Positions 2,476 through 30,269 of a DNA stretch of 46,411 nt are shown here, piece after piece. This stretch comes from Punctularia strigosozonata HHB-11173 SS5. Its lineage: Eukaryota > Basidiomycota > Agaricomycetes > Corticiales > Punctulariaceae. Positions within the stretch are counted from its first letter, which is position 1, and every line of letters starts with the position of its first letter. The DNA is taken from the NCBI RefSeq assembly GCF_000264995.1, contig NW_006767438.1, positions 1,603,631 to 1,650,041 of the forward strand. Reading direction: 5' to 3'. The notes beneath the pieces are model-generated. The model saw nothing but the letters and a program-made list of their open reading frames with translations. It did no database searches and was not told where the DNA came from. The translations under genes were made by a program, and so were the position numbers.

Positions 2476-4565
2476 ATGGCCGCAAACCCAACACCACTTG
2501 CTCTCTCCACGGGTCTGGTGAGAGCATCTCGTGCAGCGCGTGCAACGCTGAACCTAGCCTGATGTAGTTGACATCGTTCGCATTCCGGCGCTTTGAGCCA
2601 CGGCGTCCACTGTTCATTTTTTCGCTGCTGTTCATCCCGCCGCTTTTCCTCGCTGCCATTGCTTCATCCGGTTTGGGACCCCTTCAACGCGTGCAAACAG
2701 TAGCCAAACATGTCGTGCTACATCTTGCATCTCTCGTCATCTCCACCGTCGCGTATCGCGTTTCACCTTTCCATCCCCTCGCAAAATACCCAGGTCCTTG
2801 GAGATGCAAAGTTACGCGTCTATGGGCGCTGAAAATCGCCAATGGGGGTAATCAGCACCGTTACTACCACGCCCTCCATGAAAAATTTGGGCCGGTAGTG
2901 AGGTCGGGTCCGAACCATCTGCACGTACGCGATCGAAGCGCCATACCTATAGTTATGGGAAGAGAATTTCGCAAGGGAGGACGTACGCACAGTTTATCTC
3001 TGTACAATTACCCCCGCCTGACTGCGCTACAGGTTACGAGTCTAATCGCCTTCCCGGCTCGCAAGGCGCGCTGCTCACCATCTCCGATCCACATCTCCAT
3101 TCGCAGAGAAGGAGAATATGGGAGCGAGCGTTCACACCCACCAATATCAAGGAATATGAAGAGGTGGTCCGACGGCGAGCAAATGAGCTTGTGAAACAGC
3201 TTCGGAGTAAGAAGGGTTCCGCGTTGGACCTTAGCTCGTGGATAACCTACCTTTCGTGAGCTGTCTCTCCATAGCGCCTTTGAAATCTCGCTGAATTGAT
3301 CTCACAGGTTTGATGTGATGGGCGACGTAGCGTACGGCGGCCTATTCAATCTTGTATCTGATGGAGGGGACAAGTTAGGCTTCATTGCGCGCATGAACCA
3401 CGGTGTCAAGCAGCAAGAAGTCGCCGGAACCATCGAATGGCTGGCGCCGTTTGTGCTCTGGCTTCCGCAAATCAAGGCCGCCAGCGCTCGCATGTATGCA
3501 ATGGGCCGCCGGGCACTGGATGCACGCATGAAACAGGGCACAACTCGGAGGGATCTATTCTATTATCTTGTGCGTTCTAACTTCTGTTATTTCTTGAGAC
3601 TTGGTTCCGACGCATATCGTCAGCTGGACGAGGACAAAACTGGAAACGGAGGCGCAGAGCCTCTGAACGATGTGACGCTGATGGTAGAGGCCAGCTTTGC
3701 TATCGTCGCAGGTTCTTTACAATCGTCTGGTTCTTCACATCGCTCCTAATACGAGTGAACGCTCCCAGGCTCTGACACAACTGGGACGGCGCTCTCCAAT
3801 GCCTTCTACTATCTACTCACTCATCCACCCGTGTATCGTCGCCTGCAAGGAGAGGTCGACGCGGCCTACGCAAACTCTGGAGACGGCGAAAACGTGGATC
3901 CTGCCGTCCTTTCCGAAATGCCATACCTGAACGCGGTGATGTACTACATCCTCGCTCGTTCTCAGGGACCTCATCGAGCTCTGACTCCGCACAGTAACGA
4001 GACGCTCAGGATGCAGCCTGCACTGCCTAACGGTGTTCAGCGGCGCAAGCCCTTCGGCAGCGGAGATATCACGGTTGGGGCTTATCGCATTCCTGCTGGA
4101 ACTACGGTGCAGATTCCTAGCTACTCCAGTAAGTCGTCCTTGGAGCTAGCATGCACCGTACCCCCTGACGTCAAATCAGTTCATCGTGACCCGAGATACT
4201 TCTATCCAGAACCAAATACTTTCATTCCGGAACGATGGATCACTGGTGCCGATATCACAAAGGCGCATGGTTTCGCACTGGATAAGGACGCTTACATCCC
4301 GTTCAGCTACGGTAGGCGCCTATTCGCTTGCTCAAATACTTGAATAATGCGGACGGTAACTTGTGTTGTAGGTGCGACCAATTGCGTTGGTCGTCCTCTC
4401 GCCCTCCTCGAGCTTCGTGCCATCATTGCGACATTGGTACATCTGTTCGATTTTACTCTAGCCGAGAACGAGGGATGGTCGAAGGATAACTGGGAGAAAG
4501 ATCTCAGGGATGCGTTCGTGCTACTGAAAGGCCCGTTGATGGTCACTGTTCGGGAGAGGCTCTGA
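2476..4565 (+). CDS. Cytochrome P450 monooxygenase (P450-1)
   Basis: Membrane-anchored fungal P450, haem-thiolate monooxygenase, substrate unknown. Nine exons close in frame to 553 residues: 2476-2517, 2568-2982, 3033-3255, 3308-3569, 3624-3711, 3769-3940, 3995-4128, 4180-4311, 4372-4565. The true ATG lies in a 14-codon first exon, because the second exon is preceded directly by an in-frame stop. A hydrophobic N-terminal anchor is followed by a Pro-rich hinge ([13 protein letters not shown]). C-helix WERAF, I-helix AGSDTTG, ExxR as ETLR, FIPERW, and haem loop [11 protein letters not shown] with the Cys ligand are all present. Three of these motifs span exon junctions, which supports the splicing. 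It faces a related P450 tail to tail 402 bp away, and the two share exon 1 length and phase. I cannot assign a CYP family number. Confidence 0.93.
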
Positions 4566-4967
4566 ATTCATTTGTGTACTATGTGCCGGCGTCCCTGCGA
4601 ACATCTGTGACAGTGGTCTGGTAAACTGTATAGTTATGTACTCCACGACTCGTTTCTTCTTGTTGCTGCTCGTGACCTTACAACCAGACTCCATACCTGG
4701 TGCGGAAATCCAATGGAAACCGGGCGCGCCATCACAATGCTATACGAGTGCCTCGTTGACATGATACGTAACCTGATATTACGGCTATTACGGCACTGCA
4801 CCGTAATGTACATGGCAATAAAGACGGCTCGATGGCCCCAAATACGAACCTGCCCAGACCAGACCCGCCAATATTAATATGTTCGCATTGCGATTCCAAC
4901 TTGCAAAGGCTCAGCATCATGATCATGATTACATGCAATCGACCGTTGGAGCAATGATCTCGCCTGC
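4566..4967. other. Convergent 3' intergenic region
   Basis: 402 bp between the stop codons of two converging P450 genes. It should hold both 3' UTRs and polyadenylation signals. No coding potential seen. Confidence 0.5.
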
Positions 4968-7183
4968 TCAATCGGTATCTCTCCGTTTCGCACAGGCCAT
5001 TAAGGGTACGCCCAGCCCTGTCGTCCTGCGATTGTAGATCCGCTCGCGAAACTCCCTCGCGTCGAAATCAGCCGGTAGGCTCATGTCGTACGCGAGCAGC
5101 AGACGCGCGAGGACGTAGCGCATCTCGTAGTATGCAAACGTCTTTGCGGGGCACACATAAGTTCCTGAGAATGACACGCGAACACCGTTAGTATGACCCA
5201 AACAGTTGCGACGAGCGTTTGGACGCGCACCGGCTGTAAAGGTAATCAAAGCCTTCCGATCTGTTTCAAATCCTGCCGCAAGCGCGTCTTCTGCCCACCT
5301 CTCGGGTACGAACTGGTCCGGCATCGGAGAAAAGCTCTCCGCTGAAGTTTGTACGGAGTGAGCTGCGATCGCGACGACAGTCCCTCCAGGAATAAATACC
5401 GATCCAGACGGCATATGTGCGTCCTCCAAGATGGCACCGTGCGGAGGCGTGATGCGCGGGTTGAAGAAGGGCGTTCCCAGTCGGAGAGACTCGTTCACAG
5501 CACCATTTAGCAGCGGCAGGGACGCAAGAAATGAAGGGTTCAGGTGATCGTGTAAGGAAGTGTCGCTCCCAGGCACCAACCCACGAGCCGTGTTTGAAGA
5601 TTCGTCAAGATGAATCGCATGCTTCAGCGAGTGGAATAGCTCGGATTGCAACTTGTTCCAGTACCCCGGGGAGGAGAGGACGAAATATAGAGCGAGCGAG
5701 ATGGAGAGCGACGTATTGTCAGAGCCTGATTCATCGATGCATGAGCACTCAGCACGCCAGCCGCAACGGTGTACGCACCTGCCTCGATTGCCACCAGGGC
5801 GTTCACTTCCAAGTCCGTCTTCGTCATCTGCCTACGGCTTTGCGGGTGTCCTTCGAGCTATTCAAGGGCATGATAATGTTAGCTCGTGTCTTGTGGTGCC
5901 ACAACGCAGGAGACTGCACATTGATGTCATGATGCACATCCTCACCCAGTATCCGCTGATGTCTCGGATCGAGATCTCATGCTTCCTCCCTGCGTTGATC
6001 CGAGCCTGCATCATATTGCCAGCTTTCTGGCGCAGTTGGTGAAGATGAGAAGAGAAAGGTAGATGCCATAGTATGTCGAGTAGCCACGGCATTTGCCCGA
6101 ATGAGTCGACGATGGCCATGGCCTCCTTTCCGTTGTCAACGAGAGATTCAAGGTCGCCGTCGCGCATTAACTCCTAGGAGAGCCGGTGATATGCAATACT
6201 GGAGCCAACATAGTATAAGCACGCACGAGTTGACTTGAACCGCCAAACACAATCTCCCCCTGTAAATAGACGTTTTATTCAGTCGCAGATCACTCAGCGG
6301 TTTTCTAATCACCATGAAGTCATACGACCAGTGCGATACGCATTCACTCAAGTTGACTCGCCCCGTCAGGGGTTGTAGACGACGAGATATACATGCAATA
6401 AGCTCGTTTGTACGGCGTTCGAGGGGTAAATAGAAGTCCTGCACCCTACATGGCGACCTTTGCGTAAGCGATTCTCTCAGAGATAGAGCGATATAACATA
6501 CCCTTTAGTGAGAGCTTGGCCCCACACGTAGCGCAGCTCACTGTGTATTTTCTTATCGCGCGGCTTGAAGAAAAGCGACTGGGCATCGACGTGACCCGGA
6601 ATATCGTACGCGTACGACTTTTCCCATCCGCCGGCGTAAACTAACGATTGTGCGGCAGGAGAGCAGATCGATAAGAAGTTGGGACCTAAGCGCAAACGGT
6701 TCAGCTAGTACTATGCAGAGGTCATGGGTGGGAGTACTTACCTATCCGTACAACTCGTCCGTATCTTGCGTGCAGTCTCCCGATGACGATATGACGTCTC
6801 CCACTCAGGCTTGCCAGCACAAGCGCCAAGTCGGACATTTGCCATAGTAACGGGCCTCGGAACCGGTGGAGGGAATGAAACGGACTGACTCTCCAGGAAA
6901 CCGTGAACAAAATCGCTCCGAGGATGTGAAGGAAGAACAGGCGCAAGAAGCAGAATGATGATACGTTTCCAGGACGGTCGCGATTCTCCACCAGCGCGAG
7001 GGCGAGAGACAGAGTTATTATTGCGAGGAGGGCGTGATCGCCTCTCAGCCGGGTGCGCTTCAGGTGCAGAATTGCGCAAGTGAGCTGAGTCGCATCGTTA
7101 GCTATGGGTGAAGCACGTAGTGGGTCGGCTATAGGACTGACAACTCCAGATGACAGCGCCAGCGCCATCACGATGTTGTCCAT
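4968..7183 (-). CDS. Cytochrome P450 monooxygenase (P450-2)
   Basis: Second P450 of the convergent pair. Nine exons close in frame to 577 residues: 7183-7142, 7084-6742, 6685-6502, 6445-6313, 6259-6227, 6173-5946, 5857-5779, 5725-5231, 5164-4968. The first exon again encodes exactly 14 codons (MDNIVMALALSSGV) and aligns with P450-1, so I prefer this ATG over one seven codons upstream. A membrane anchor, the hinge VSPFHSLHRFRGP, I-helix AGSDNTS, ExxR as ESLR and FVPERW are visible. The haem loop is FTAGTYVCPAKTFAYYEMR: the Cys ligand is present, but the usual Gly two residues after it is Ala. It shares several intron positions with P450-1 but lacks the two near ExxR and before HRDP. The 5' end abuts a repeat tied to a transporter locus. 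Confidence 0.92.
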
Positions 7184-7402
7184 CCGATCGATGGATACTG
7201 GCATTGCGGATGTTCAGGGGGGGAGGAGGGTTGGAGGTTTGCCTTCCCTGCGTCTGTCTACCCCGAAACGAGATCATCGCATGCGAGGGCGTGGTAACCG
7301 GTCAGACCCACATTGTGACAGACTGTAATATGAAACGGGCAATGGTGAAGCCCGTCGAAGTTGAAAAAAGCATCATTTGTTTGCAGGGTGTTTCTTGCGT
7401 CG

Positions 7403-7985
7403 TCTTTGGATTATTGGCCGGTAACATGCAAGCTCCAAGTTTCAACGTGTCCGAAGCACCGGAGATTCAGACTGCTTCCGCGCGTGTGAAGGCCTGGGCG
7501 TTGTAAGAACGTCCGGCATGACCAAAGGGAGTGAGTGCGGCTGCAGCCAAATTTGTCGGACTGGTGAGATCCTGTGTCACGCCTTCGCTCAGACGAGGAA
7601 AGGCCCTACCTGCTTTTCTGGCACTGATGAGGAAACCTGGGCGCTCTGTGCCACACATACACGCTGCGCCCCACGCCGCGATGGTGTTGTCCGCCGAGAT
7701 AGAGGAAAATACAAGATATCGGTGGCCCTAACTTCTGTAATGCAGTCACAATGACGGGCAAGCAGTGGGCACCGAGTTGCAGGTGAAACCTATCCGATCT
7801 ACGCCCATTTCCATTGGCATTCCTAGAGACTCCCGTCATTGCTGTCCATCCCCCGGAAGATCGAAGCTATCACGCGCTCAAGGCAATACCATTTCGGTCC
7901 GGCGTTCCCATTAGCGAGGATCGCGCCCCGTATGCGCGCCGTACCCCATCATCGATTCTCTAGGGTGTTGTGGAGGTGGGCCATC
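7403..7985. repeat. Long direct repeat, copy 1 (transporter 5' region)
   Basis: This stretch is a diverged direct repeat of 17381-17984, sharing long blocks such as GACTGCTTCCGCGCGTGTGAAG. Copy 2 sits upstream of the intact DHA2 transporter at 18188, so the repeat is the transporter's distal 5' region. It contains part of a minus-strand open frame (7606-7839) matching the start of a longer frame in copy 2. Here that frame is shifted by a 2-nt difference in a CA-rich run. I do not regard that frame as a proven gene. The match stops at about 7985 and resumes at 11509. Confidence 0.8.
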
Positions 7986-10900
7986 GGTAGTCTAAATTCT
8001 TCGGTAATTCCAGCCGTGTACGTGAATCAGAAGGATGGGTCGGTGGCGACCTTTCTTTGCGGCTTGTGCTTTCGAGAGATATTCTCAGTCCTCACTTCAA
8101 CGACGCACATTCTCACCGGGTTCATTTCTGGACAATTTTCGTCGAGAACATCCCACCCACGGCGATCAAAAGTCAGCGGTGGGCCGGACCCAAACGGAGT
8201 GGATTGCTGCTCGCTCCCTCGATGAACCCCAAGCCACCGAAGCTTTCGCGCCCAAGTGAACAACTGTCAGCGCGAGTGAGTCGTCGCAGCCACTGTTCAA
8301 GCTGCGACGCCTCCGCTCTTGTCGAACAAGCTCAGATCGATCTCTAATATTGTGCGCAAGATAGTAGCCTCCGTCGCGAGACGCACAAGTACACCGATCA
8401 TCAGGTCTCGCTGGTCTCGCGTAATGTGAAGGATCTCTCGGGGGCTTGGGCTTGAATGCTCGAACGCAGCTGGCAACTGCGACGATCAGAACCTGTGGTA
8501 ACAGAGGCTCCGATTACGCTGTGCACCCCTCTAAAGGAAGACTCAATAAAGCATCCAGCAAGGTCAAACTGGTCCCATGCCCTGATTACGGCTTTCATCT
8601 CAATGCGCGGGCCGCCAACGCGCACACTAGCGCCCCATCGGGGAACCTTACGGATCACACACTCACACTCACTCTGACCGCCTTGCTAAGTCTGGCTGAC
8701 GCGGTGAGGGTAACGCTGATTGACAGCGAACGGTCGGAACGGAGCGCACTCCGTCGGGTCCGCTGGCATGCGTTCACGGGTGGGCCGCGACACAGACCAA
8801 AGCAATGCACTCGCCTGCCATGCGTCGATCGTCTGTTCTGTGAGGGCATAGTCTGTTCTGTGAGGGCATGATAAGTCTCATGGCTGGAATGGATCATGGA
8901 CTGGCTTACAGCACCGCAGTTCGACCGTGGAGGCGAAGTTAGACTCGTCACCGGACGTTACATAGACGACGATGGCTCCAAGCGCCGGATTGGCAGAACC
9001 AAGAGGTTTGACCAAAGTCCAAGCGATCGAACTTCGACTTGGTTACGACGCCCGCGGGGGCAGGGTTCCTTGGAGGTGGTGTTTGGTGGGACTAGCTGGT
9101 GCAGATGTAGAGGAGAGGCGTGTCTCGATAGTGCCGACGGCAGCATCTTTGGCTGGCTGGTCGACGTGTGGTGCGTTGGCCGATGGGGCGATAGGTACAT
9201 ACGCCATAGAGGCGAGTCCTGATCGTCACATCGCACGTTCGGAACCCCTCGCCGTCGGACAAAAGAAGTCGATGGCAGGAGTGGCGTTGTGGTGACAGAA
9301 GCTACAAGAAGGAAAAGGAGTAAAGTTAATGACCACGGCATATGACGAGGAGTAGATGAAAACGTACCTGAATAGAGTACCCCGCCGTCGTGGGCTAACA
9401 AAGGTTGAGATGAAGTAAGAAGACTGGAACGCTGTCGCTATAACCAGTCGGTCGAAAGGTTTTCCATCGTTCATGGTTTCCAGGACATGGAGATTGCGGG
9501 AGACGTTCCGGAGATAACGCAAAATCGAGGATGATAGAGGAATCTCGGGAACGGCATCGTGGGTATGCCCGGTCTGCGCTCCGGCGGCCTCTTTGTTCCA
9601 ATACGACAGCCGATGTCGACCTTCGAACACCTAATCGTGCGCTGGTCGTTGAGTGTGACGGGGCCAGGGAGAATGCGAGCAAGTCATTGAAGTGGTACTT
9701 GTCCTGGTGAACCGATAGTTGGGCGAGGTAAACCATTTTCGAAGTTAATTCAAGTGCAGTAGGTGGCGAGGAACGTCGAATAAGGGAGAGAGAACCGCGC
9801 TCTTCCTCGTGAGGATGGATACTGGCTTGATGGTAATGACCGCCGAACCCGTGATGTCTGTACATGGCGTTACGAGGGCCAGCGTGTAAAGTACGAAGCT
9901 ATGAGTACGTTCAGCGAGGGAACATGTGCGAGCAAATTGCACGCACTCAAAACCGTTCAACGGTGACTTCTCCACAAGCTGCAGTAGAAGAGCTTCATAG
10001 AATAGTGGTTCAGAGCGAACCCGGATGTGGTTCGCCTGCGTAGAGACGGTCTTGCGTCTGAACACGTCCCGTTATTTGGAAGACGGTAGTTTCAAGATGT
10101 TGAGAGACGTCGTATCATTGCATAACGTGAGCGTGGTCGCGTACTGAGCACAAACAATAGTTAGCCTAAGTTGCGATAGCAACGGATCCGTTGCAATACA
10201 TACGAAAGGTTAAGACGGCAAGGACAATGGCGCGCAAGAAGGCAGTCGCGCGAGCTCGCTAGTCTTATCCTGTACGAATGATGCATCTCGACAGAAGAGC
10301 AGCGATTTACCTGATAAAAAAAACACGAGTCAGCACTATGCGATACAATGACGATGGATTGGCTCACTATAGCGCGTTGAGCGTTCATTTTATTGTTGCG
10401 AGTTTTGAAGACGGATGATTTGGCGGTGTGTAGAGAATGTCACGGGTACAAGATGGACGTTGTTGGCACACGAGAACGTCCAGGAGTTCATCTTGCAGCG
10501 GGTGTGGGCACAGCCGCTATAGACGCACATCCCTTCTTCCGTCCTATCCTGCATGGGCAAGCCCAGGCAGGTGTGTGACTCTACCAGGGCCCGTGCCCCT
10601 GATCCTGGCGAGAGTAGCATCCATCCTGTTCGCGCGAGTAGAGCCGAATTGTCATAGTTTGGTGAAGCTGGGCGTTGTTGACATGGCGGTCGGTCAAAAA
10701 AGGCGGCTTGAATATTGGACACGTGATTTTGGATTACGCAATCGACGCGTCTCTTGAGTCTCAGCCAGTCGAGGGCGCCTCATCGCAGCGTTCATAATGC
10801 GCATTCATCACCGCCGATCTAAGTAATGAGATATAACGCTTGCTTCATTCAAGGCTATTCAGAGTAACGTAATCTTGAATCAATAGTAGGAAACGAAAAT

Positions 10901-11508
10901 GCGTTCCAAACCAAAAGGTTCGGGCGACTCGCAGCCCAAGAATTGACGCGCTTGCGATGGCGGACTCCACCAGCCATACGCTAAGCGTGTCCCTGACGAC
11001 CGGAGCACTGAATCCGAGCGACCTCCTGGCGATCCCGAGAACGTCCCTATGGGCGGGACATGTGTCGTGTTTCATCGTCACACACGCCCATCGCTTCGGT
11101 GCGAGTTGCTTGTGCGTCGCTCGCTTTCTTACTCGCTGACTTTCTCACTCGCTCGCTTTCTCACTGGTGGGTGTCACGCGTCCTATTCTGCTAGTATACA
11201 GTCTCCCAGCTGGATAATGGCACGATGTCAATGTTCACAACGGAATACTTGCGTTTGGTCGGCTAGAGAGGAATCGTGTTGCAAATCGCCTTAGCAGCAT
11301 CGAGCGAGCATCAAGATTTGCAAGTAAGTATTCCAAGGATCGCCGAAGTCTTGCATGGATGTAGGTGAGGTCTTTTACTAGAACTACAGGACCAGAAAAC
11401 AGCGAGTGATGACCACCATAACTGACATGCGTACCAGATTCCAGAACGAATGTCGCGGTCGACTTCCACATAGGCGCTTCAAGACGAAAGGAGCTCGTCT
11501 CCTGATTA
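7986..11508. other. 3.5 kb segment interrupting the repeat; no gene recognised
   Basis: In copy 2 of the repeat the corresponding interval (17985-18027) is only about 43 bp. Here it is 3523 bp, so this looks like inserted or replaced DNA. Many short frames exist on both strands (for example minus 8958-9401, 9226-9630, 9745-10065, 10390-10722), but none gives a domain I recognise, and no transposase, reverse transcriptase or terminal repeat is evident. It includes a 20-bp tandem duplication and a CTCGCTTTCTCACT-like low-complexity run near 11120-11165. It may be a decayed mobile element or unrecognised fast-evolving sequence. Confidence 0.55.
8831..8870. repeat. Tandem duplication, 2 x 20 bp
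   Basis: Two adjacent 20-bp units beginning GTCTGTTCTGTGAGGGCAT, identical except for the last base. It lies in sequence without a recognised gene. Confidence 0.85.
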
Positions 11509-11621
11509 CGTGTCCTGTGCACATTCGCCTTGTGCCTCACTGACAGCAGAGGTATCCCGGTGTCCCTACATTCGCATCACAAGTGTCTGACTGCATCGTC
11601 ATCCACAGTTCCGGTGGTGAT
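11509..11621. repeat. Direct repeat copy 1, transporter-proximal part
   Basis: The match to copy 2 resumes here (18028-18187 in the intact locus). Shared landmarks are CGTGTCCTG(T/C)GCACAT, AGGTATCCC and CACTGCATCGTC-like sequence leading into the transporter start codon. This shows that the pseudogene that follows once had the same promoter as the intact transporter. Confidence 0.8.
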
Positions 11622-11875
11622 ATGTCGTCTAAGGATATATTCCGCGTATCGCAGGCTAGCGCACAAACTTCATCACTCGAGACTCTTTTGTGGGCAAGAC
11701 AGTTCGAATGCCCCGGTCGTACGCTCTCTTCTCTACACGGAACGTTTGAGCTGATCTCGAAGCGTGCTGCAGGGGCAGCATCATGTTCGTCGGGTCGGTT
11801 AAATCCGTCCTCATTGCTTTGACATGGGCTGGACAAAAGTTCCTGTGGGCCTCGTTTCATGGTTCTCGATATGTT
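11622..11875 (+). pseudogene. DHA2 transporter pseudogene with large internal deletion
   Basis: Starts with the same MSSKD N-terminus as the intact transporter at 18188. After about 15 codons it jumps to sequence matching 19012 onward (RDSFTSK ... IVRMDW region), followed by the GGTAACATCATGTTCG-type exon and the ALTWAGQQF segment, before homology ends near 11875. Relative to the intact gene about 775 bp is missing, removing the first several transmembrane helices, and the C-terminal half is absent. It cannot encode a working transporter. Confidence 0.82.
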
Positions 11876-12082
11876 TGCCGATCAGATGGGCACTTTCCTG
11901 TAAGCTCTACATCTTCTCATTCCGGCCCGCACTGACTCGACGACAGAGCACGGACGATAGCCAGGAAAGTCTAGATTGAATTCGCTATTCCTCCTCACAC
12001 ACGGCCCGAGGTGCAGCCTGAGTGCGGGCCCTTGGAGGCGCTCTTTTGTATCGGTCTGCCATCGTCGGAATGCACGAGTCCT

Positions 12083-12215
12083 GAATTTACCCCTTGTCCA
12101 TTGGACTTTACGCCTCTCACTCCCCTCGAAACTCGTTTGCCGACGAGATAGTGCGATTGGACTGGATGAACCTCTTCGTCGTCACACCAAACGTTGAGAA
12201 GACGTTCTGTAAAAT
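12083..12215 (+). pseudogene. Second DHA2 transporter fragment
   Basis: A short stretch around GAGATAGTGCGATTGGACTGG matches the KIVRMDW region of the intact transporter (near 19040), with roughly three quarters of bases identical over about 48 bp and weaker similarity on both sides. The same region is already present in the pseudogene just upstream, so this is a separate remnant or an internal duplication. Boundaries are approximate. Confidence 0.5.
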
Positions 12216-12634
12216 CTATATGACGTTCGTTGAGCGTTCAACATTGGCGCTCCGAACTTGGGCTTAGGCCAGACCGAGATTCCTTAGGACCTCTCTTCAA
12301 GTTCCCATACACCCTGTGGTGAACTTGCGATGTATTCAGTTCCACCAAAATTGCAGGATGACTGCTTCTTTACGACCATCGTAACTATTTCACAGACGCT
12401 CCAATATTCCAATCCAACCCCAGAATATGTCTTTAACCTCCCAGAATCCCGTTCCGTCTTTCACTGGCTCTCTTTCGATGCTCTCTTCCAGAATGTTCGA
12501 TCCTGCTCAGCCATACAGCTCAGTCAAACAACGTGTGTTTCATTCTCTCGCAGAGTCGACTCGTAACTGAAGCCAGACTGTCAGCGCTAAGCCGGACGTA
12601 TTTTCATGGCTTGAAGCTGGTACATGCCGGTCAG

Positions 12635-14341
12635 CTAATCCTCTGGAGCCAATTGTCGCGCCGCTTCTCCCCGCGAGTTCTTGTAGAACACAACATTCCC
12701 CTCGTCCTCTACGAAATAGCATTGCGTGAATGATCGATAAAGCACGCGGAAGCAATTCTACGGTGTATTAATCGATTGTGGATCACGTCAATGTTTCGGG
12801 CATGCGCACCGTTGAATCGTAGTTGTATTCATCCTTGAGTACTTCCTTCAATTTTTTGGTTACTTGGGGCTGATTATCTGCGCGAGATTGAGACATGCCA
12901 TTTGAATGTGCACGCCCGAGACTGACAGAAAGGGATGTGCGAGAATAGATGATGTGCGGTATGATTGTGCGAGGCCTGCGGCGTTGATAAGCACTCGTCC
13001 CACAGAAACAATCGCCGCGAGTACGTACATTATGAAAGAAGAACCTGTCTATCCAACCCAGTGTCAGTCGATCAACGGTCGCCAGTGCCCCTCGCATGAA
13101 AGACCATTTTCCTCCACGATAGTAAGGGATTGTGGGATCGGAATGTTGCAAAAACGTAAGCATGACAATCCAATGGTTACTGAGCTATTACTTGATAGTC
13201 GATGTTGCGAGCAGCATTGGGGTGACATTAGAATGCTCACCAGGTACGGTACGACATAATCGACTAGAAATGCGGACCAGCCACAGCATTTCGCATACGT
13301 CAGTAGTACAACGCACATGGTCGCGATTCCGACATCGGAGATAATGATCAGCCTTCTCTCTGAAGGTTTGAACAGCGGGGAAGACGGGAGGTAATGCTGC
13401 ACCCAGTTTAGTCAGCGATATCATATACGATGAGATGAATGAGACGCGGTACTGACGTTGGTTCCTCGTGGATATCTGAGAGACCCTCCGGCATTGATGG
13501 ACATGTACAGCTGCAATCCAAGGAGCTGTGTCACGAGCAGGTTGATCAAAACGTAGATAGGTGTTTCCTCGAGTATCTCCTTGTAATCCGCTGCCGTTAT
13601 TTCCGACCACGGAGGAAGGCCTAGCTCTGCTCGTGTTCGAGGAACAAAGTTCTCGTCTTTTTTTATCGACCCAGTGGCTTTCTGTTTCGACATGCGTAAG
13701 TTCGTTTCAAAAATAGTCATGTGCACCTACGTGATGTGCTTGGTGTGTTGAGCGCCACGAGTAGTACGGGAGTAGTAGACACTAAGCAAGGCATCGAAAA
13801 AATGGCCGCGCTTACGAGGAAATGAATGACAAACAGTGTGCAAGAAGTATCCCACCATGTGATTAATCCTTGAGTGGGACGAGATGTTACCATGCCCGGC
13901 CTCATGTCCTGCATACGGAAGGAAAAAATGAGAACGGTTTCAGTCGGTCCTCATCTTTTCTACGTCACCTAAGCAGAAGACACCAGTCAAGGCGATTCCT
14001 TGCCACCACCAGTAGACCAATAAAGATACGAAATGTATGATCGATGGTATGAGATGATTAGGTTGCTGGCTCGTGTAAGATAGCGGCCAATCATTCACGT
14101 AACGGAAAGAAATGTAGAATAAAACTGGGAACGCGATGGTTTGGGCAGTGTAATACAGTCCTTTTGCAGTGGACACTTGATGAAGCTCCTTAGGCATGAC
14201 AGAGCGGACCTGCTGGATCGTTACCTGTGGAGCTTCAACAACGTTTCGCCCCTCAGCAAATGATGAACTGTAACTACCTACATTTGATGGCTTGAAGTCG
14301 CTCTTTGTACGCTTTTGATATTCAGGGGAGTCCTGAAACAT
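12635..14341 (-). CDS. Membrane fatty acid desaturase, Delta12/FAD2-like (FAD-A)
   Basis: Di-iron acyl desaturase of the ER membrane, FAD2-like; expected to introduce a double (or in divergent relatives a triple) bond near carbon 12 of oleate or linoleate. Nine exons close in frame to 424 residues: 14341-13969, 13908-13835, 13781-13731, 13681-13457, 13396-13241, 13184-13029, 12975-12927, 12877-12810, 12757-12635. The three histidine boxes are intact: HEAGHG (split by an intron), HQAHH (preceded by SWRST) and HTAHH (followed by LFSHIPFYN). The C-terminus has the family's CYFVEDEGNVVFYKN ending, recovered only by splicing past an apparent stop after MPETLT. The HEAGH/HQAHH combination marks a fungal subfamily distinct from the HECGH type next door. 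It is divergent from FAD-B across 627 bp. Confidence 0.93.
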
Positions 14342-14968
14342 AGCTGCGTAGCGTATGGGCGATGAGATAAGACGTGCTCATTCGATGATACCATCTATCT
14401 TATGGTAACTTATACTGGTACTGACGGTGTTCGAGGGCCTCGCGGCCGAGCTCCGGTTGCTAGTCACTATCGGAGTCCCGAGATTAGGCATTCGTTTATG
14501 AAGCTCAAATGGGTGCGTTACCACGAGCCCGAACAGGATATGGTCAATGGGTCCATGAATAGAGGCCCGCATTCACCTCGTTTCGGACACAGTTTGTACG
14601 GGTACCTGTACCGAGTCAAGAAGCTCATGCTACGATCAGAAATCCTCACGAAGATCCCGGAAGACCGAAGACCGATGATAGCACCGTGGCGCATGGCGTG
14701 AGACTAAGAATACGAGGGGTTACCCGGGCAGGCTTCCTTTCCGTATCAGCCACCCAGTAGCTATTCTCCATTGCGTCCTCCGCGTACGAAGATGATGTGA
14801 TGATTATCATCGTCAGGGCGCCCGCCCGCACGATGAGCCACATCGGTCCGAGGCGCACATGGCTCAAAACTGTGCTTCCGTTCTAGCCTACGCTAAATAC
14901 TGCTCGTGCCCCTCTCTGTATCAGTTGAACGTGTGCTTACTGCTGCCTCGCCACCATCCTTCCGTATC
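14342..14968. promoter_or_regulatory. Shared divergent region between two desaturase genes
   Basis: The two desaturases start on opposite strands from either end of this 627-bp stretch, so it must carry both promoters and could co-regulate them. A plus-strand frame (14402-14701) is open but has no homology I recognise. I could not pick out a TATA box or regulator site with confidence. That it is a bidirectional promoter is inferred from gene layout. Confidence 0.6.
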
Positions 14969-16635
14969 ATGAGCTCTACGTCTTGCGTCGCTGTTCGTCA
15001 TGACTTTGTTCCCTTGCCATGGCACGTGCCGCATATTTTTGATAGTCGTTTCTCACGTTTTTGAAGGACATTGAAGGAAATACGTGAAAGTATTCCGAAT
15101 GCGTTGTTTAGAAAGAGCACCGGGAGGGCTATCCTATACCTTGTCAGAGATGTAGCTTTCGCCGCTTTATTTGCGACATCAGTGTATCACTTGGATGCCG
15201 CTGCATGCCGGGTCGGAGCTGTGAGCATCATAGCCACAATCTCAAGATGGTGCATTTGGGCCCTATAGTATGAGCATCCTGTTCTCGTCCTTTAATATAG
15301 TCCCACGTCTAACCTTCTTGTCTTAGTTGGTGGTTCCAAGGTCTCGTCTTCACCCGAATATGGGTCATAGGTCATGAGGTAAATATTTCCCAACATAAAT
15401 TCTCCATTATCTTCCTAACCTGTACAAAGTGTGGACATTCCGCATTTTCTGACTCCCATACTATGAATAACGTCGTCGGTTTTGTGAGCATACGCCCATA
15501 ATTGCGCCCCATTGTTTATGACTGCCCTTCCCATAGATAACCCACACCGCATTATGGACACCTTACTTCAGCTGGAAGATATCTCACCACAGGCACCACA
15601 GCTATCACGGGTCTATGGAAAAGGATGAGGTGTCCGTGTCAAAATACTCGGATTTCACTTTCCTCTGCCTAACCTCGTCATAGATATGTCCCTAAAACTC
15701 GCGCGGATATCGGATTGCCGCCAGCACATCACAGCGCAGATGAAATCGAAGCTCACTTTAGTGATACCCCCATCTATACCATGTACATGCTCATCCGGCA
15801 GCAGCTTCTCGGATTTACAACATATCTGATGTTCAATGTCTCGGGGCAGAAGCGATATCCAAGATTTACTAATCATTTCAATCGTAAGATTTTTTGTTCC
15901 AGCGGTGATTCAAAATATGATCAATTTTGTTTAGCCGAGTCCGTTCTCTTTACGAAGGAGCAACGCAACGCTGTTATGGTATCCAACCTGGGACTTGCTA
16001 TCCAAGGTGCATTGTGCTACAATGCCATACAAATCTGGGGAACCGCGGCTTTTATCAGATATTACGGCCTTCCATGGCTGGCAGTAAATCACTGGTGAGG
16101 AGATGCACCACCGTCTCGCACTTTTTACGGATATACATGGGTCACAGGTTCATGATGATTACTTACCTCCCCCACACAAACTCAGAAATTCCTCATTACC
16201 GAGGAAAGGTGTGGAACTTTCAACGAGGGGCGGCTGCGACAGTGGATCGTAATTTTCTCGGTTTGCAGGGTCGTTTATTTCTGCATGACGTGAGAAATGA
16301 AGTCAATTTTCGGAGGCGGAACGATAACAATTGCACAATAGGTTGCTCACTTTCACGTCATTCATCACTTCTTCCCGGCACTCCCTTGGTACAATGGCGA
16401 AGAAGCTACTAAATACCTCAAGGACTTTATCGGCAAGCATTACGTCCGACCAGAAGACTCTGTTTTCCGTGTATTATGGAAAACATACAATGACTGTCAG
16501 TTCGTGGATGATGAAGGTCGGAGTGAATCTCATTCCGTTCATTTTTGCGGAACACTGAATACAAGCAAAGGCGATATTGTTTTTTACAGAAATCGGCGCG
16601 GCGAAGTCATGCGTGGCGTCGCTTTCTCGAAATGA
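14969..16635 (+). CDS. Membrane fatty acid desaturase, Delta12/FAD2-like (FAD-B)
   Basis: Second FAD2-like di-iron desaturase, divergent from FAD-A. My model has ten exons (14969-15025, 15077-15267, 15327-15378, 15430-15483, 15537-15637, 15684-15883, 15935-16094, 16148-16289, 16342-16516, 16571-16635), closing to 398 residues. Histidine boxes are HECGH (split by an intron), HHRHH and HVIHH, the last within [17 protein letters not shown]. The C-terminus reads [19 protein letters not shown] after splicing. From EIRESIP onward the model is firm. The first exon (MSSTSC...) is a guess, because it needs an acceptor at 15076 that drops the T-L-K normally before EIRES. The donor at 15638 (GTCAAA) is weak. 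A MITE lies 84 bp past the stop. The enzyme may be a second desaturase or a diverged acetylenase. Confidence 0.88.
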
Positions 16636-16718
16636 GGCGCATTATCAGTTTGGATGTGCGCATGATCAAGATGAATAGGTCAAGTTTCTAGCTGTGTAAC
16701 TACGACGATTATGCACTG

Positions 16719-16967
16719 TACTGTAATTTTACGACCTTAGGTTCGTCCCCTGTCCCCTGGCAACCTGAACTGAACCTAATTTCCCGTGTTGTCCCCTGTC
16801 CCGCCACCAATATCCAGGCCTTGAACTGACCGTGGGAACTGTATTTCCTACTGTGAGAATATTGCACACTGACTACAGTCAGTTTGCGAACTTCCCACGG
16901 GCCCGAACTTGCAGCTGTCCCCTGTCCCCCCGGGGGCGGACCGAACCTAAGGTCGTAAAATTACAGT
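16719..16967. mobile_element. TA-flanked MITE with 24-26 bp terminal inverted repeats
   Basis: A ~245-bp element bounded by perfect inverted repeats beginning CTGTAATTTTACGACC (left end at 16721; mirrored right end at 16965), each flanked by TA (16719-16720, 16966-16967). Inside are three copies of TGTCCCCTGTCCC-like motifs and a second inner inverted pair (CCGTGGGAA / TTCCCACGG), so the whole could fold into a long hairpin. There is no coding capacity. TA target duplication and size fit a non-autonomous Tc1/mariner-type MITE. The superfamily is inferred. Confidence 0.9.
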
Positions 16968-17380
16968 ATTGAGAAAGGTGGACACGATTATCTGAGAGCT
17001 ACTACACAATTTTGATGTAGCATCAGCTCTTCGTAACAGTGTCCCCGTACTCGAATAGAGGGAAATTCACTTTGTCAACGATTCAATTCAGACGTGAAGC
17101 TTGGCCCTTATGATGGGCTGTGGCGACGACTCAAAGGATACCTAGAGCCGCGCTGTTCCCGGTGATCGGAGCACCAAGCGACCAATCTGAGCTTTCAGAA
17201 GACAATACTCCCTTATACAAACATTGAATACGATAGCCGCACATGTAACGAAATGCCGCGATGAATCCGATAATAGATGCTGTCACACCTCTCAATTGAC
17301 GGAAGTCGACAAACATCACTGTTACCCTACGCTGGATCCGGTAAGTGCCGTCACCTTCAGGAAATGGTGATGCCTGCATC
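16968..17380. other. Intergenic, no gene recognised
   Basis: About 410 bp between the MITE and the repeat. It contains the 3' part of a minus-strand open frame (17131-17835) with no recognised homology. Nothing else seen. Confidence 0.4.
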
Positions 17381-17984
17381 TCTTTGGGGCACTGGCCGGT
17401 ATCTTGCAGGCTCCAACCCGCCCGAAGCCTCGGAGATTCGGACTGCTTCCGCGCGTGTGAAGACCTGGGCGTCGTAAGTCCAAGGGGAGTGAATGCGGCT
17501 GCAGCCAAACTTGTCGGGCTGGTCAAGTAGTTGCCGGAGTCCCATTGTGGTGGTGGCGTGAGATCCTGTGTCACGCCTTCGCTCAGACGAGGAAAGGCCC
17601 TACCTGCTTTTCTGTCACTGATGAGGAAACCTGGGCGCTCAGTGCCACACACACACACACTGCGCCCCACGCCGCAATGGTGTTGTCCGCCGAGATAGAA
17701 GAAAATACAAGGTATCGGTGGCCCTAACTTCTGTAATGCAATCACCATGACGGGCAAGCGGCGGGCACCGAGTTGCAGGTGAGACCTATCCGATCTACGC
17801 CCATTTCCATTGCCATCCATAGAGACTCCCGTCATTGCTGTCCATCCCCCGGCAGATCGAACCTATCACGAGCTCAAGGCAATACCAGTTCGGTCCGGCG
17901 TTCCAACATTAGCGAGGATCGCGCCTCGTATGCGCGCCGGACCCCATCATCGATTCTCCAGGGTGTCGTGGAAGTATGCCATCT
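17381..17984. repeat. Long direct repeat, copy 2 (transporter 5' region)
   Basis: Intact-context copy of the repeat at 7403-7985. It is about 20 bp longer, mainly through an extra ~35-bp block near 17530 and an expanded CA run (CACACACACACACA near 17645). It lies upstream of the intact DHA2 transporter, continuing through 17985-18187 to its start codon. A minus-strand open frame of 234 codons (17131-17835) covers it. Copy 1 breaks the same frame and I recognise no domain, so I treat the frame as probably non-coding. Confidence 0.8.
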
Positions 17985-18187
17985 CCAAGTCCGTCAGCTG
18001 TCCAGGTCCCTTAATCGTTTCAACCATCGTGTCCTGCGCACATACGCACCGGCCCTCACACGACGCCTCCATCATGGACGAAGCGCAGGGATCCGTGGCA
18101 ATGCTCAAACAACAAAGGTATCCCAACCTTCCTAGATTTGAAGTGCAAGTGGCTCACTGCATCGTCTTCCACAGTCCTGGTGGTGAC

Positions 18188-20270
18188 ATGTCGTCTAAAG
18201 ATCTACTACCCGTATCGGAGGCGGAGGTACCTGGCGCACCGACCAGTAGATCTCGTGGTGCCGCATTTTGGATGTCCTTCGTCGCCACGCTCCTCGTCGA
18301 CATCCTCTTCGCATTGGACCTCGTACATGTCGATCATTCGCAGCCCATCGCGTGCTCATAATGATTTTTCAGACCGCCGTTGGAACCGTTCTCCCTACCA
18401 TCATCGAGCATCTCAAAGGAAGCGACTTCATATGGGCAGGGAGCGCCTACACCGTATCTTCAACCGCAATCTTACCCGTTGTCGGAGGGCTCGCGTCGAT
18501 CTTTGGCAGGAAACCCACCATGTTGTCCTTCCTTGTCTTCTTCTTTCTCGGTTCCGGTATTTGTGCTGGGTCGCGCAATCTCAACATGTTCATCGCAGGA
18601 CGAGGTTAGTACCAATGCACTCCGGTATCTGCACATGAACGTGCTGAACGCGGACCAGTGATTCAGGGACTCGGTGGTGGAGGTGCTTTGGCCACAACGG
18701 TCATCATTTATGCCGATCTTATCCCCCTAGCGGAAAGAGGCACGTTTCTTGGCTACCAGGCTGTGTGAGTTCTGCGGCCTCTCCTTTTGGTGCAAGCTGA
18801 CTCGGAGATAGAGCATGGGCAACGGCGTGGTGAACTTGAACCAAGGCTGCGTACATTTACAATGCTCACATCATTATTAGCTGCATTGGCCCGATCGTAG
18901 GTGGAGCCCTGGCGAGCGCAGGCGCCTGGAGGTACCTGTTTTGGATCAATTTGCCATTATCAGGGATTGCCGGGGGCATAATCGCCCTGTATCTTCGCGT
19001 CCACACCCCGCGAGACTCTTTTACCAGCAAGATAGTTCGAATGGACTGGCCGTACGTCTTGTCCATTTCAGGAAACGTCTGAATGATCTTGACACGTATT
19101 GCAGAGGTAACATCATGTTCGTCGGGTCGACGACATCCGTCCTCCTTGCGTTGACATGGGCCGGACAGCAATTCCGGTGGGCCTCATTCCATGTTCTCGT
19201 TCCGCTGTGCATCGGGTTTGCGGGAATATTCGCTTTCTTCGCACTTGAAAGATGGGTCGTTCGGGAACCGACTGTGAGGACGAATTACTCTACATCACTG
19301 CAGCAACCTAATGCATCTGGTCAGGTCCCTTGGTACGCACTTTCGAATCGAACGTCGCTCAGTGGGTAGGTTACACGTTCTGCTTCGACTTTTTGCCATG
19401 CTCAATGCCTTGCGATCAGTTATATGGGCACATTCTTCCATGGGATGACATCCATGGCCGTCATATGTGAGCCTTCCATGCACGCGCGAATCGTAAAACG
19501 AGACCCATCCCGAGTCGTATAGTCTATCTGCCTGCCTATCTCCAGGCTTGCAAGGGGGACTCGGCCATACGTTCGGGTGTTAACATCATGGCCCTCGCAG
19601 TCGCGATTCCGTTCACCGCCATCATCATGGGAGTCTCAGTGCGCGTGTTCAAGCGATACCGCCCCCAGAACGTCTTCGGATGGGTGTTCTCCATAGCAGG
19701 CTTCGGCGCGCTCTCGACCCTGACCGAGAACAGCGCGAAGTCCCACTACATCGGATTTCAGATCATCATTGGGATCGGGACCGGATGTATCTGGATCGCC
19801 ACGCAATTCCCCATCCTGGCACCGTTGCCCCAGTCTAACAACGCGCATGCCCTCGCGTTCTTCACATGGACGCGCTTTTTTGCTCAGGTACGAGGTTGCC
19901 CTCACGCCCGACGTGCCATGATTTCTCAAGTTACTTGCAGAGTTGGGCCATCGTGATTGGCGGGAGCATACTCCAGAATCGCATTCATTCGCAATTGCCT
20001 CATGAGGTCCTCGCTCAGCTGCCACTGTCGTCGACCTCGATCTATGCTCTAATACCTCTTATCCACACGTTCGACGTGACTACTCAAGCGGTCATCAGAC
20101 ACGCGTTTGCTCGCAGCCTGCAGCTGTTATGGCGTGTGATGATAGGCATCTCAGGGCTGGGCTTTCTGTCTTGCCTTTTCATGCGAGAGGAGAAGATGCG
20201 GAAGGACATGGATGAGACGTGGGCTTTGAAGGAGAGTCGTTGGCGCGATGAGCCAGCCCGTCAGGAGTAA
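18188..20270 (+). CDS. DHA2-type major facilitator (drug/metabolite:H+ antiporter), MFS-1
   Basis: 14-helix-type MFS efflux pump, probably plasma-membrane export of a small molecule. The protein starts MSSKDLLPVSEAEVPG and is split by about nine short introns. Visible motifs after splicing are DLTAVGTVLPTII in helix 1, GGLASIFGRKPTM (motif A), GRVIQGLGGGG (motif B region), GPIVGGALASAGAWRY-LFWINLP (motif C region), then YLPAYLQACKGDSAIRSGV and a charged C-terminal tail (MREEKMRKDMDETW). Splices restore reading across apparent stops, for example A-W-A-T-A-C-C-I-G-P-I and DW-P-G-N-I-M. It is intact, in contrast to its deleted copy at 11622. It is convergent with the ICMT-like gene 87 bp downstream. 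Placement among P450 and desaturase genes suggests export of the cluster product. Confidence 0.92.
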
Positions 20271-20357
20271 GGGCTTCGTAGCAGCATTGTGTTAATAAGT
20301 GTTGCACATCTTCATCGCTCCACGCACATTGCATTGAATTCGCCGCGTCCACGAGAT

Positions 20358-21177
20358 CTACACTAAGCCAGGGATGAACTTGTACGGTACTCGATCTCTG
20401 TACGTGTTCCATTCCTCGCCGAACCGAGCCTTCAGTGCATCGTCCTCCACCCGTCCTCTCTTTACGACGCTCAGCAGGCTGAACGCGCTTAACACGTACC
20501 AGGTCCATAACCATGTCCCCCCAAGGGCTGTGCTGCTGAATCCGCTGTAGTTTGCGTATCCTTGAGGTGCGGAAACGCAGGTGATCGCTCCCACCATCAT
20601 GAGTCCGACTGCGGTGTACGAAGGGTGGCGAACGAACGTGTACGGCCCGGAGGTGACGAGCTTATGAGTGGGCTTGATGGCCACCTCGTACGTGAAGAGC
20701 GGGCCAAGGGTGCGATAACACCACATCCGGAGCGCTCCAGAGGCGAACATGAGGGAGACGCCGAGTGCGAAGCGGAGAGAGATGGTGGAGAGAACGTCCA
20801 GGGAAGCGGCACGACTCGAGTCCTTGGGGAGCATCGCTGCCGCTACCGTCTGGGCATAGGGTGCGTCCGGAAAGCGCAGCGCGAGGATGGTGGCACACTC
20901 TGAAAGGAGGAAGAACATGACTGTCGTCTAGAGAAAAAAAAAAACAGGTCAACTCCCGCAGTTCTTCCGACGAACGTACACGTCGGGTTCCTACCTTGCT
21001 CGCCAGACTGAGGGCGTGGACCGTATACTCGAATAGCTGGCCCTTGTACACTTTATCGTCCTTCGTGGGGCGCGCGTTTGGGGCTCGCAAGCTGACGTAG
21101 TGCGCGCCTGTGGCGAGAGCAAGGATAACACATTTGGCGAGAGGGGATCGTGCTATCGGAGTGGTTGCAGCTAACAT
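20358..21177 (-). CDS. ICMT-like isoprenylcysteine carboxyl methyltransferase family protein
   Basis: Integral membrane methyltransferase of the ICMT/PEMT-like family; the classical enzyme uses SAM to methylate the carboxyl group of prenylated C-terminal cysteines in the ER. Two exons (21177-20995 and 20927-20358, 67-nt intron with a long polypyrimidine tract) give 250 residues. Four or so hydrophobic helices precede the family signature GPYTFVRHPSYTAVG, and the C-terminus has the conserved ARFGEEW...YRDRVPYKFIPG. Fungi usually have one Ste14-type housekeeping copy and agaricomycetes many extra copies. The location next to a DHA2 pump fits a recruited copy that methylates a small carboxylic acid, but that is inference. 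No CaaX peptide gene was seen nearby. Confidence 0.9.
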
Positions 21178-22154
21178 CGTGTCGAACAGCGAAGGGGGGC
21201 GGGTGGCGTTTCCAGCGTAGTCAAAGCAAGGTATGGGTAACCTATGTTCAAAATTTATATCAGCCACAAGCAGGAAACGTTTGACCGTTCCACTTACCTC
21301 ATCCGGGAGGTATGCACTTCGACGTAACGCGGTCGCCCTCAATGCCGAGATCCACCTCCCATCCCCTTGATCGAATTGCAGGGCGCAGTAGATGCGCATG
21401 AGGAGAGGCAAATACGCACGCGATGATCTTCGACTCACAGGGCACCACGATAGGAAGGTGTTCCGTCGGCGGTGCACCGGAATCGCCAGCAACAGAATTT
21501 CGACCAGGTTTGGCACTTACCGCCAATGCTGATTCTATCGAATCTTCTGATGCTATACGTACGCCGTGTTGCACGCGCTATGAAACCCCGAGGTTGAACC
21601 ATGGCGCTGCACAGTGTTTTGTCCCGTTCATCATTCATAGTAATACGCTCACGGATGTGATAACACGAAGTGGAATCACACCTGGGGTCACGGGAACGTG
21701 TTCAATGCTTCAACGTCGTTTCGTCGATCGGAAGGTACTGTTGCAGCGATGGTTTCAAACGCTGGCTGTTGGCTCGAAGGCCGGCCGCATGACGGAGACA
21801 AAAGCTCGAGGTAATGCGTGAGAATCCCCTTTCGCGTCCGCCGCTTCACATCGGTAACGTCGGAATATAGGACTGTGACTTCGGAACTTTGACTGATTTT
21901 ACTGCACAGAAGCTGCAAACCGATCGACATCACTGCTGATTGAAGAAACAACTGACTGTACATACACGAGAGCGTCATTAAAACTAAGACTGTAGTTCGC
22001 CCCGCTTTGCAGTACTGTAAGAACCTCTTGAATGATGCAGCGCTCGGACAGCCATGATATCGATGTGAGCTGTTTTTACTACCACCCGGGAATACTTTAT
22101 TCTGAAGCCGGGTGATCCGCACCGTCGACCCTCGAGCCGGTAAACACTGACCGT
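21178..22154. other. Intergenic, no gene recognised
   Basis: 977 bp. Open frames on the minus strand (21299-21574, 21688-22122) have no homology I recognise and no obvious splice partners. Confidence 0.4.
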
Positions 22155-22216
22155 ATGTCTCTGGTTAGCATTGATGATGCTGAGATTGCGGGATTCATTG
22201 GAGAGTCCATGTACGG
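22155..22216 (+). pseudogene. Orphan first exon of a 7-TM membrane protein gene
   Basis: Encodes MSLVSIDDAEIAGFIGES followed by M-Y-G, almost the same as the first exon of the 7-TM gene at 32040-33618 (SIDEAELAGFIGESILYG) and similar to that at 43536-45073. The remaining exons of the family are not found downstream, where DUF6534 gene B lies on the other strand. This is a stranded remnant of a lost or moved gene copy. Confidence 0.72.
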
Positions 22217-22578
22217 ACCCTCGCCTACTTTCAGAGCTAGTGATGGACCAACTTCTCCTCTGCGACTGAGTACAGACAGGTGCTGCAATATCAGTGACGC
22301 AATGGTTGCGAGCGGACATGGTCAAAATCAAAACAGAGGTTCGGAATCATATTCGCGGTCTGTGAAGGTCATCGGTATTCAGTTGCATATGGTACATGAA
22401 TCCAGTTCTGTTTGCCATTCCAGACATCCCGTGACTTGTAGCACCAGAGCTGTGAGTCGTGCAGTGCAAGTAATCTCTAATCATACTTCTCCAGAAATTT
22501 TGTCATCCGAGGTTATGTCGATTGGTGAGGGCTACGAACCCAAAGAAAACAGGTCGTTAGCTATCGATTTCTCTCGGG

Positions 22579-23616
22579 CTACTGTCCATATACAACCTTT
22601 CTGTCGTCATCATCGTGAATACGGCTCATCTCCACTTGAACGTTAATCCCGCGCGGTTTGGAGACTGAAGAATTGATCGCGGTTGATCCCGACCCTTGCA
22701 AGCTGCTCGAAGTAAGCAATCCGGAGGAACCCCCCTTTCTGAGGGACCCGCGACCGTTAAGACTGAGATATGGGTCAACTTGGTTGTGAACGTAAGTCAC
22801 CGACGACTCACAAGACAAGCAGACTGTTCGAGTAAAGCTTCGCATAGAAAAGCAGGATGCCCAGCCAGATTGCGTTGTTGGGCATTGAAACGATGCAGGC
22901 AAGCATGAGTATCGATGCGATGCTCGTAACCGCCCCTGTCTCGACAGTCCACAGAGTGAGCTTGTCAAGGACAAGCCTCGTATTGCGGAACCTGCTCCGT
23001 CTACGTCTCAAGAGGAGAATGAGGGACATCGCGTTGTAGGCGTCGAGCGCCATGGTGTTGGCAATTGCTAGGTTCGTGAGCCACCGGTACTGCTGAACAA
23101 AAACGGGGAGAAGTCTAGCTTTAAGTGATGTGGCTGCGAGTGCGACGGCAAGGGCGAGGCGGAAAACCGAGCAAGTCCAACCAGGAATAGCAAAGATAAT
23201 CCTTGAGGACACGACATATATGCGCCATGCAAAGAACAATTGCACGGCACATCCAACGACGCCGGACAGTAAGACGCATGAAGCCAGGTCCCATGGGACG
23301 ATCAACAGCTCGAGAACTTTGCCGAACCGTGTGATCGTGGCACCGTAGAGGTAGGACCAGCTCAAAGCTGTGTGCAGAGCTTCCACAAGCCTGAACAAAG
23401 GTATATTATCAGATACGTGATGATAGCCCGTACGCTAATCATGTCTCCATACCACACAAAGCCGACTAGTATCTTGATGTACGCCTTGTCGCGCTTGAAA
23501 TGATCAGAAGCCAAATAAACGTATGTTTGCGTGGTCATAACACCGAATAGTACTGTGGAAATGAGAATTCCGATTTCCAGAGCACCAACGGATGTGTCAA
23601 GGGACAATGGCGCCAT
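22579..23616 (-). CDS. DUF6534-family multi-pass membrane protein (copy B)
   Basis: Close paralogue of the gene at 591-1637, with the same three-exon structure and splice phases and most residues identical across the membrane helices. The N-terminus is MAPLSLDTSVGALEIG. Splicing at the GTATGG donor again joins V-W to L-V-E-A-L-H-T-A-L-S-W. The last exon encodes the Ser/Gly-rich tail (LNGRGSLRKGG...). No disruption is visible, so both copies appear functional. The two copies differ most in the tail and in introns. Function is unknown. It sits between an orphan 7-TM exon and a long empty stretch. Confidence 0.88.
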
Positions 23617-29846: not shown

Positions 29847-30269
29847 GTGCAAACGATGGCGTGAATCGGTAGATTGCACCGATACGGCCGAAGGACTCGT
29901 GGTATGTAGGTGCGTGTATGGGCTTTGCGCACAGACTGATGTGGATGAGAAAAAGAATCTATGAAGGCAGTCCACCGGATAGATCACGTCCGCTTCAAAT
30001 TTAGCGTCCCACCGTGACTACTCGTTTGTTGGCCACCTATACGTTGCGTGCGCTCGTGCCGTTTCTGAAGCCAATGCCGTTCTACAGCCCGTGCATCAAC
30101 GCGTAGTCATGTTCTTGGAGAGGCGTGGGCGAAGCGTCTCAGAAGGGGAAGAAGTGCGCCCGCTGTGAACTAGCTCTCCGACGGGCCGCCGATTGGTCCC
30201 TCTCACGGTACGATAAGATACAAAACTTGGGACACCATTGCAGCTGAGTGAGAGCGCCGACTTCGCGCG
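29847..30269. other. Intergenic, no gene recognised
   Basis: 423 bp between two plus-strand genes. It holds the reductase 3' end and the promoter of the 7-TM gene. No supported coding sequence. Confidence 0.45.

Follow-up and report, generated by a model that had tools for sequence, protein, structure and literature searches.

Can a group of genes that lacks a polyketide synthase (PKS), a nonribosomal peptide synthetase (NRPS) and a terpene synthase nevertheless encode a pathway of specialised metabolism in a basidiomycete? The question is raised by a 46,411-nucleotide stretch of Punctularia strigosozonata HHB-11173 SS5, hereafter the window (C6:1,603,631-1,650,041, C6 being contig NW_006767438.1), in a genome of 33.6 Mb on 32 contigs. 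A first-pass annotation had proposed an oxylipin or polyyne-like pathway for this locus. We put the odds at about even (probability roughly 0.5) that the block at 2.5-21.3 kb is a small specialised-metabolism cluster modifying a long-chain fatty acyl substrate. The genes concerned, in window positions, are the following.

2476-4565, plus strand: P450A, a cytochrome P450 of 553 aa in 9 exons (PF00067, E 2e-70)
4968-7183, minus strand: P450B, a cytochrome P450 of 581 aa in 9 exons (PF00067, E 3e-30)
12635-14341, minus strand: DesB, a FAD2-type desaturase of 405 aa in 10 exons (PF00487, 89.3 bits, scored on a 409-aa model before revision of the first intron; His boxes HEAGH/HQAHH/HTAHH)
14342-14999, no strand: the 658 bp between the modelled start codons of the two divergent desaturases
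15000-16635, plus strand: DesA, a FAD2-type desaturase of 389 aa in 10 exons (PF00487, 79.3 bits; His boxes HECGH/HHRHH/HVIHH; start uncertain)
18188-20270, plus strand: an efflux pump of the major facilitator superfamily (MFS), 537-aa model (PF07690, E 1e-32; TRI12, E 2e-10)
20358-21302, minus strand: an ICMT-like membrane methyltransferase of 278 aa (PF04140, E 1e-13)

Gene models were made with a simple finder trained on the organism's own genome, using a coding bonus and hand-chosen splice sites guided by family homology. As they were built from genomic sequence alone, gene starts are uncertain, that of DesA most of all, and a number of splice sites are likewise provisional. The complete models of P450A, P450B, DesB and DesA hold 8, 8, 9 and 9 introns, respectively, of 41-88 nt each; such short GT-AG introns, together with the gene families present, are in keeping with a mushroom-type basidiomycete. 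The pump model includes a doubtful tiny exon (18812-18829). Six-frame Pfam scans covered 7.4-12.4, 23.6-28.5 and 31.5-46.4 kb of the window, and 1-7.4, 12.4-23.6 and 28.5-31.5 kb were searched through the modelled genes, with short gaps between genes outside the scan. Models and Pfam together bear out the gene content given by the first-pass annotation, namely two P450s, two FAD2-like desaturases, a pump, an ICMT-family protein and two DUF6534 proteins. Its range of 2476-23616 holds all of these except one DUF6534 gene, which lies to the left at 591-1637, and its label "DHA2" for the pump goes beyond the Pfam matches, which are to MFS_1, Sugar_tr and TRI12 only.

Both desaturases score above the PF00487 cut-off of 29.7 bits and carry three intact His boxes with eight His, and all nine introns of each are GT-AG. 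They diverge as previously described, from modelled starts 658 bp apart, on either side of the proposed single control region. A search of the organism's own genome for FAD2 recovered the two window genes, a canonical-looking Delta12 gene (C2:2218859-2219956, box 1 AHECGH) and two further genes, DesC (C6:1.796 Mb) and DesD (C6:1.802 Mb). Identities are 38% for DesA-DesB, 38% for DesA-C2, 37% for DesB-C2, 57% for DesB-DesD, 39% for DesA-DesD and 36% for DesD-C2. At 37-38%, neither window desaturase is the canonical-looking enzyme, and DesA and DesB are old relatives of each other; their 38% identity rules out a recent duplication. The earlier description of divergent FAD2 paralogues therefore holds, with both genes intact and a separate canonical-looking Delta12 enzyme encoded elsewhere. 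DesC and DesD are DesB relatives in tandem within C6:1796001-1806000. The DesD model is clean (409 aa); in DesC, a stop separates two pieces that would otherwise run on continuously. For DesB-DesD and DesA-DesB, synonymous divergence (dS) has reached saturation, and we accordingly give no dN/dS for these pairs.

A pointer to unusual chemistry comes from DesA. Residue rules for divergent plant FAD2s have been compiled in PMC3554562 (this and the other papers given by PMC accession are drawn on as excerpts): a Gly before box 1 marks functionally divergent enzymes except hydroxylases; (D/N)VX(H/N) at -5 to -2 of box 3, credited there to the Cantharellus acetylenase paper, marks acetylenases; and a Pro at +3 of box 3 marks conjugases. 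DesA fits all three: Gly precedes its box 1, and around box 3 it has DVAH at -5 to -2 and Pro at +3. In a five-row alignment of DesA, DesB, DesD, the C2 enzyme and Arabidopsis FAD2 (DesC was kept out on account of its internal stop), the Gly occurs in two of five rows (DesA and DesB) and the motif and the Pro in one each (DesA). The residue before box 1 is Ala in the C2 enzyme, DesD and Arabidopsis FAD2. DesA also reads LPHTN where the remaining four of five rows read LQH. Because the rules are plant-derived and the alignment is without any known acetylenase, this agreement is a lead only and not a test of activity.

Characterised enzymes offer a partial parallel. The plant acetylenases and conjugases Crepis CREP1, safflower CtFAD2-11 and Calendula FAC2 share with DesA and DesB the three His boxes and PF00487 and, with DesA, the Gly before box 1, (D/N)VX(H/N) and Pro at +3, as compared by rules, the plant proteins not being aligned (PMC3554562). 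The window enzymes differ from them in standing at 37-38% identity to their own canonical-looking enzyme, in the LPHTN of DesA and in being known here from sequence alone. An acetylenase of Cantharellus formosus is likewise of basidiomycete origin, a likeness drawn by title and not by sequence. To judge from the title of the 2010 work of Blacklock et al., it is reportedly the first fungal acetylenase.

Backbone-forming enzymes were also sought. No PKS, NRPS or terpene synthase domain was found in the scanned parts of the window, in agreement with the first-pass annotation; the left flank is masked and the short gaps lie outside the scan. Genome-wide, ketosynthase gives 15 matches and terpene synthase 14, none of them near the window or the second site described below, and the sole match on C6 is a weak ketosynthase at C6:49 kb. 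NRPS domains were sought in the window scans only.

The strongest new evidence for a cluster comes from a second site on C6. The nearest relatives that look intact, for the pump (C6:1701343-1703267, 45-60% identity), the ICMT-like protein (C6:1710540-1711309, 40-45%) and P450B (C6:1713677-1715724, 45-52%), lie there inside 14.4 kb (C6:1,701,343-1,715,724), all on the plus strand and in an order and orientation that differ from those of the window. The three are known as protein-query matches only. By E-value, the best match of the pump is C10:284576-286066 (26%); the gene at C6:1.70 Mb is the closest by identity, with several exons. Three of the eight searched families thus converge on this site (pump, ICMT-like and P450B), and searches with P450A, DesA, DesB, DUF6534 and the indole-3-glycerol-phosphate synthase (IGPS) discussed below do not point to it. 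Under uniform placement, the chance of any three of six genes co-locating is about 1.5e-5, a figure that is too optimistic. That the trio is still linked in a different arrangement would favour selection for linkage.

A fatty-acid-modifying cluster is plausibly the most economical reading of these results, with joint action of the genes as its working proposal. In such a pathway, the canonical-looking Delta12 enzyme on C2 would supply linoleate, and DesA and DesB, working in the endoplasmic reticulum, would introduce a triple bond, a conjugated system or one more double bond in the Delta12-Delta14 region. Hydroxylation or epoxidation of the chain would fall to P450A and P450B, O-methylation of a lipophilic carboxylate to the ICMT-like enzyme and export of the product to the pump. 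Pump, methyltransferase and P450B would form the core module, the desaturases and P450A being specific to the window locus.

No substrate hint for these steps came from comparison with PDB sequences: the best match of P450A is CYP3A4 (E 8e-31) and that of the ICMT-like protein has E 0.01, neither being close, P450B has two weak matches only (E 7e-6), and the desaturases gave a single weak match apiece (E 0.0035 and 0.00056). The two P450s are unrelated to each other. The heme-binding Cys stretch of P450s usually ends in Gly. P450A combines PF00067 with an ExxR motif (ETLR) and the stretch FSYGATNCVG, and its best relatives in the genome are on C7 and C1; P450B has ESLR and FTAGTYVCPA, with Ala in place of the usual last Gly, and is likewise recognisable as a P450.

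An acetylenic (polyyne-type) product is a weaker sub-hypothesis than the fatty-acid cluster itself, and we regard it as doubtful. Equally tentative is the fuller proposal that a reusable trio has been joined to two divergent FAD2s and yields an acetylenic or conjugated fatty-acid methyl ester, built and exported without PKS, NRPS or terpene synthase by a basidiomycete cluster of an undescribed kind. For the pathway first proposed, the intact divergent FAD2s, the DesA residues and the joint occurrence of the trio relatives elsewhere speak in favour; the DUF6534 genes and the FAD2 expansion, both ordinary, give no support by themselves.

Several observations weigh against a fatty-acid cluster. 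The residue rules derive from plants, and DesB follows the Gly rule only (GHEAGH; NASH in place of (D/N)VX(H/N); HTAHH-LFS). The second site yielded no FAD2 match in the own-genome searches, and what it gives for P450A is weak (34-38%) and corresponds to the P450B relative; the trio and the fatty-acid part could therefore be separable. The 28 kb around DesC and DesD (C6:1.796-1.804 Mb) hold no P450, pump or ICMT of the window type. The ICMT-like protein falls in the Pfam ICMT family and scores 42.5 bits, far under the cut-off of 160 set by the NCBIfam equivalog isopcys_mtase, from a bacterial and archaeal library, for an isoprenylcysteine carboxyl methyltransferase proper (Ste14/ICMT). Related pumps also occur at C6:1.471 and C6:1.689-1.691 Mb. 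Left of the masked stretch, at C6:1574216-1574517 (bases ~586-887 of flank piece L008), there is an ICMT-like piece broken by an internal stop, near a 341-base, 70% DNA match to window 21417-21755; part of the co-location may therefore be local duplication.

A rival account is a chance neighbourhood: FAD2 paralogues of the ordinary kind, serving membrane-lipid adjustment, would have unrelated P450s and transporters for neighbours on a stretch of contig rich in duplications, with no joint pathway. The P450s of the window illustrate its appeal. Six-frame Pfam scanning places a third P450 at approximately 39470-41450 (plus strand), and three P450s per 46 kb are more than uniform placement would give (Poisson 2e-4). 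On the 92 candidates scored out of 266, the genome has at least 105 P450 matches, merging into at least 84 loci, and at least eight distinct places, the window included, reach three or more P450s in 46 kb. Density alone is therefore not special, and we rejected it as proof of a cluster. An expanded FAD2 family is likewise ordinary in mushrooms: in Lentinula edodes (shiitake), six homologues fall into two groups, most of them containing 6-8 introns, and have been investigated in connection with linoleate and heat stress (PMC11277945). Several paralogues in one mushroom are thus common to shiitake and the present genome, and the excerpts of that paper describe no cluster with P450s. The FAD2 relatives without other window genes, the local duplications within the window and the several pump relatives elsewhere on C6 point the same way. 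What a chance neighbourhood explains poorly is the joint occurrence of relatives of three unrelated families at C6:1.701-1.716 Mb and the residue changes specific to DesA, and we consider it rather unlikely overall.

Still less probable, in our judgement, is that the pump, ICMT-like enzyme and P450B work as a trio on another scaffold, tailoring and exporting it, or in the detoxification of an external compound, the desaturases being mere neighbours. The second site, which matches the trio and gives no FAD2 match, agrees with this, as does the presence of an aldo-keto reductase, a second MFS pump, the third P450 and a stand-alone IGPS on the right side. A core enzyme could sit in the masked left stretch, where an N run starts at C6:1,575,435 (N for 8,197 of 10,000 bases of flank piece L008 and 100% of L009 and L010); the left edge of any cluster is consequently unseen. 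Against this explanation, neither site has a match to ketosynthase or terpene synthase in its vicinity, and both desaturases are internal, between P450B and the pump, and not at an edge. A mating locus, suggested by an ICMT with multi-pass membrane proteins, was dropped, as no STE3 domain was found in the scanned parts, a scan that is not base-complete.

Around and within the block proposed as a fatty-acid cluster lie further features, of which the decayed pump copy (7.4-12.2 kb) and the metabolic genes at 27-41 kb were absent from the first-pass annotation.

591-1637, minus strand: DUF6534 protein 1 (PF20152); cluster membership not supported
7387-12176, plus strand: decayed second pump copy with upstream stretch, in pieces (blastn 76-83% to 17366-19199)
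about 22481-23616, minus strand: DUF6534 protein 2 (PF20152); cluster membership not supported

The 0.6 kb before the intact pump (17366-17983) has a counterpart at 7387-7985 (82.6%), and fragments of the pump itself are found at 11543-11868 (77-78%) and 12118-12176; six-frame translation of this stretch gave no Pfam domain. The DUF6534 genes (491-1654 and 22476-23635) lie on either side of the block as direct repeats, spaced 21.98 kb from each other, with 75.9% identity over 1,177 aligned bases and dN/dS of about 0.13 over 304 codons. As duplicates of each other in a common family (23 genome matches, of which 16 pass the cut-off singly and another 5 when combined with neighbours), they find no support as pathway members, and their presence by itself adds nothing to the case for a cluster.

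To the right, the stand-alone IGPS (27475-28344, minus strand; 289 aa, intronless model) matches PF00218, with a weak overlapping QRPTase_C match. Other IGPS copies are a 331-aa frame at C6:2015137-2015949 and a 704-aa frame at C10:866914, the latter presumably the fused TRP1; stand-alone copies could feed an indole pathway. The aldo-keto reductase lies at 28670-30168 and the second MFS pump at approximately 34225-36100 (minus strand); together with the third P450, they may extend the cluster rightward. Six-frame scans of the window also gave a DUF7657 match below the cut-off. Repeats include a young one at 45748-46207 (460 bp, 99.6%), with an inverted copy about 35 kb rightward on the same contig, a 193-bp element at 10447-10639 (93.8%) that recurs left of the window, and a diverged duplicate pair at 32091-33323 and 43572-44762 (69-82% in pieces).

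Mushrooms make many alkynyl products, as tabulated in PMC10636002, and in a 2020 mushroom polyyne paper gene identification was still described as future work, as far as its excerpts go (PMC7692509). Among the matches listed in the open-access literature, there was no basidiomycete cluster of this make-up. If the fatty-acid reading is true, a mushroom alkynyl pathway would become open to direct test through one compact locus that pairs two divergent FAD2s with tailoring genes, and such a locus would escape methods that seek PKS, NRPS or terpene synthases.

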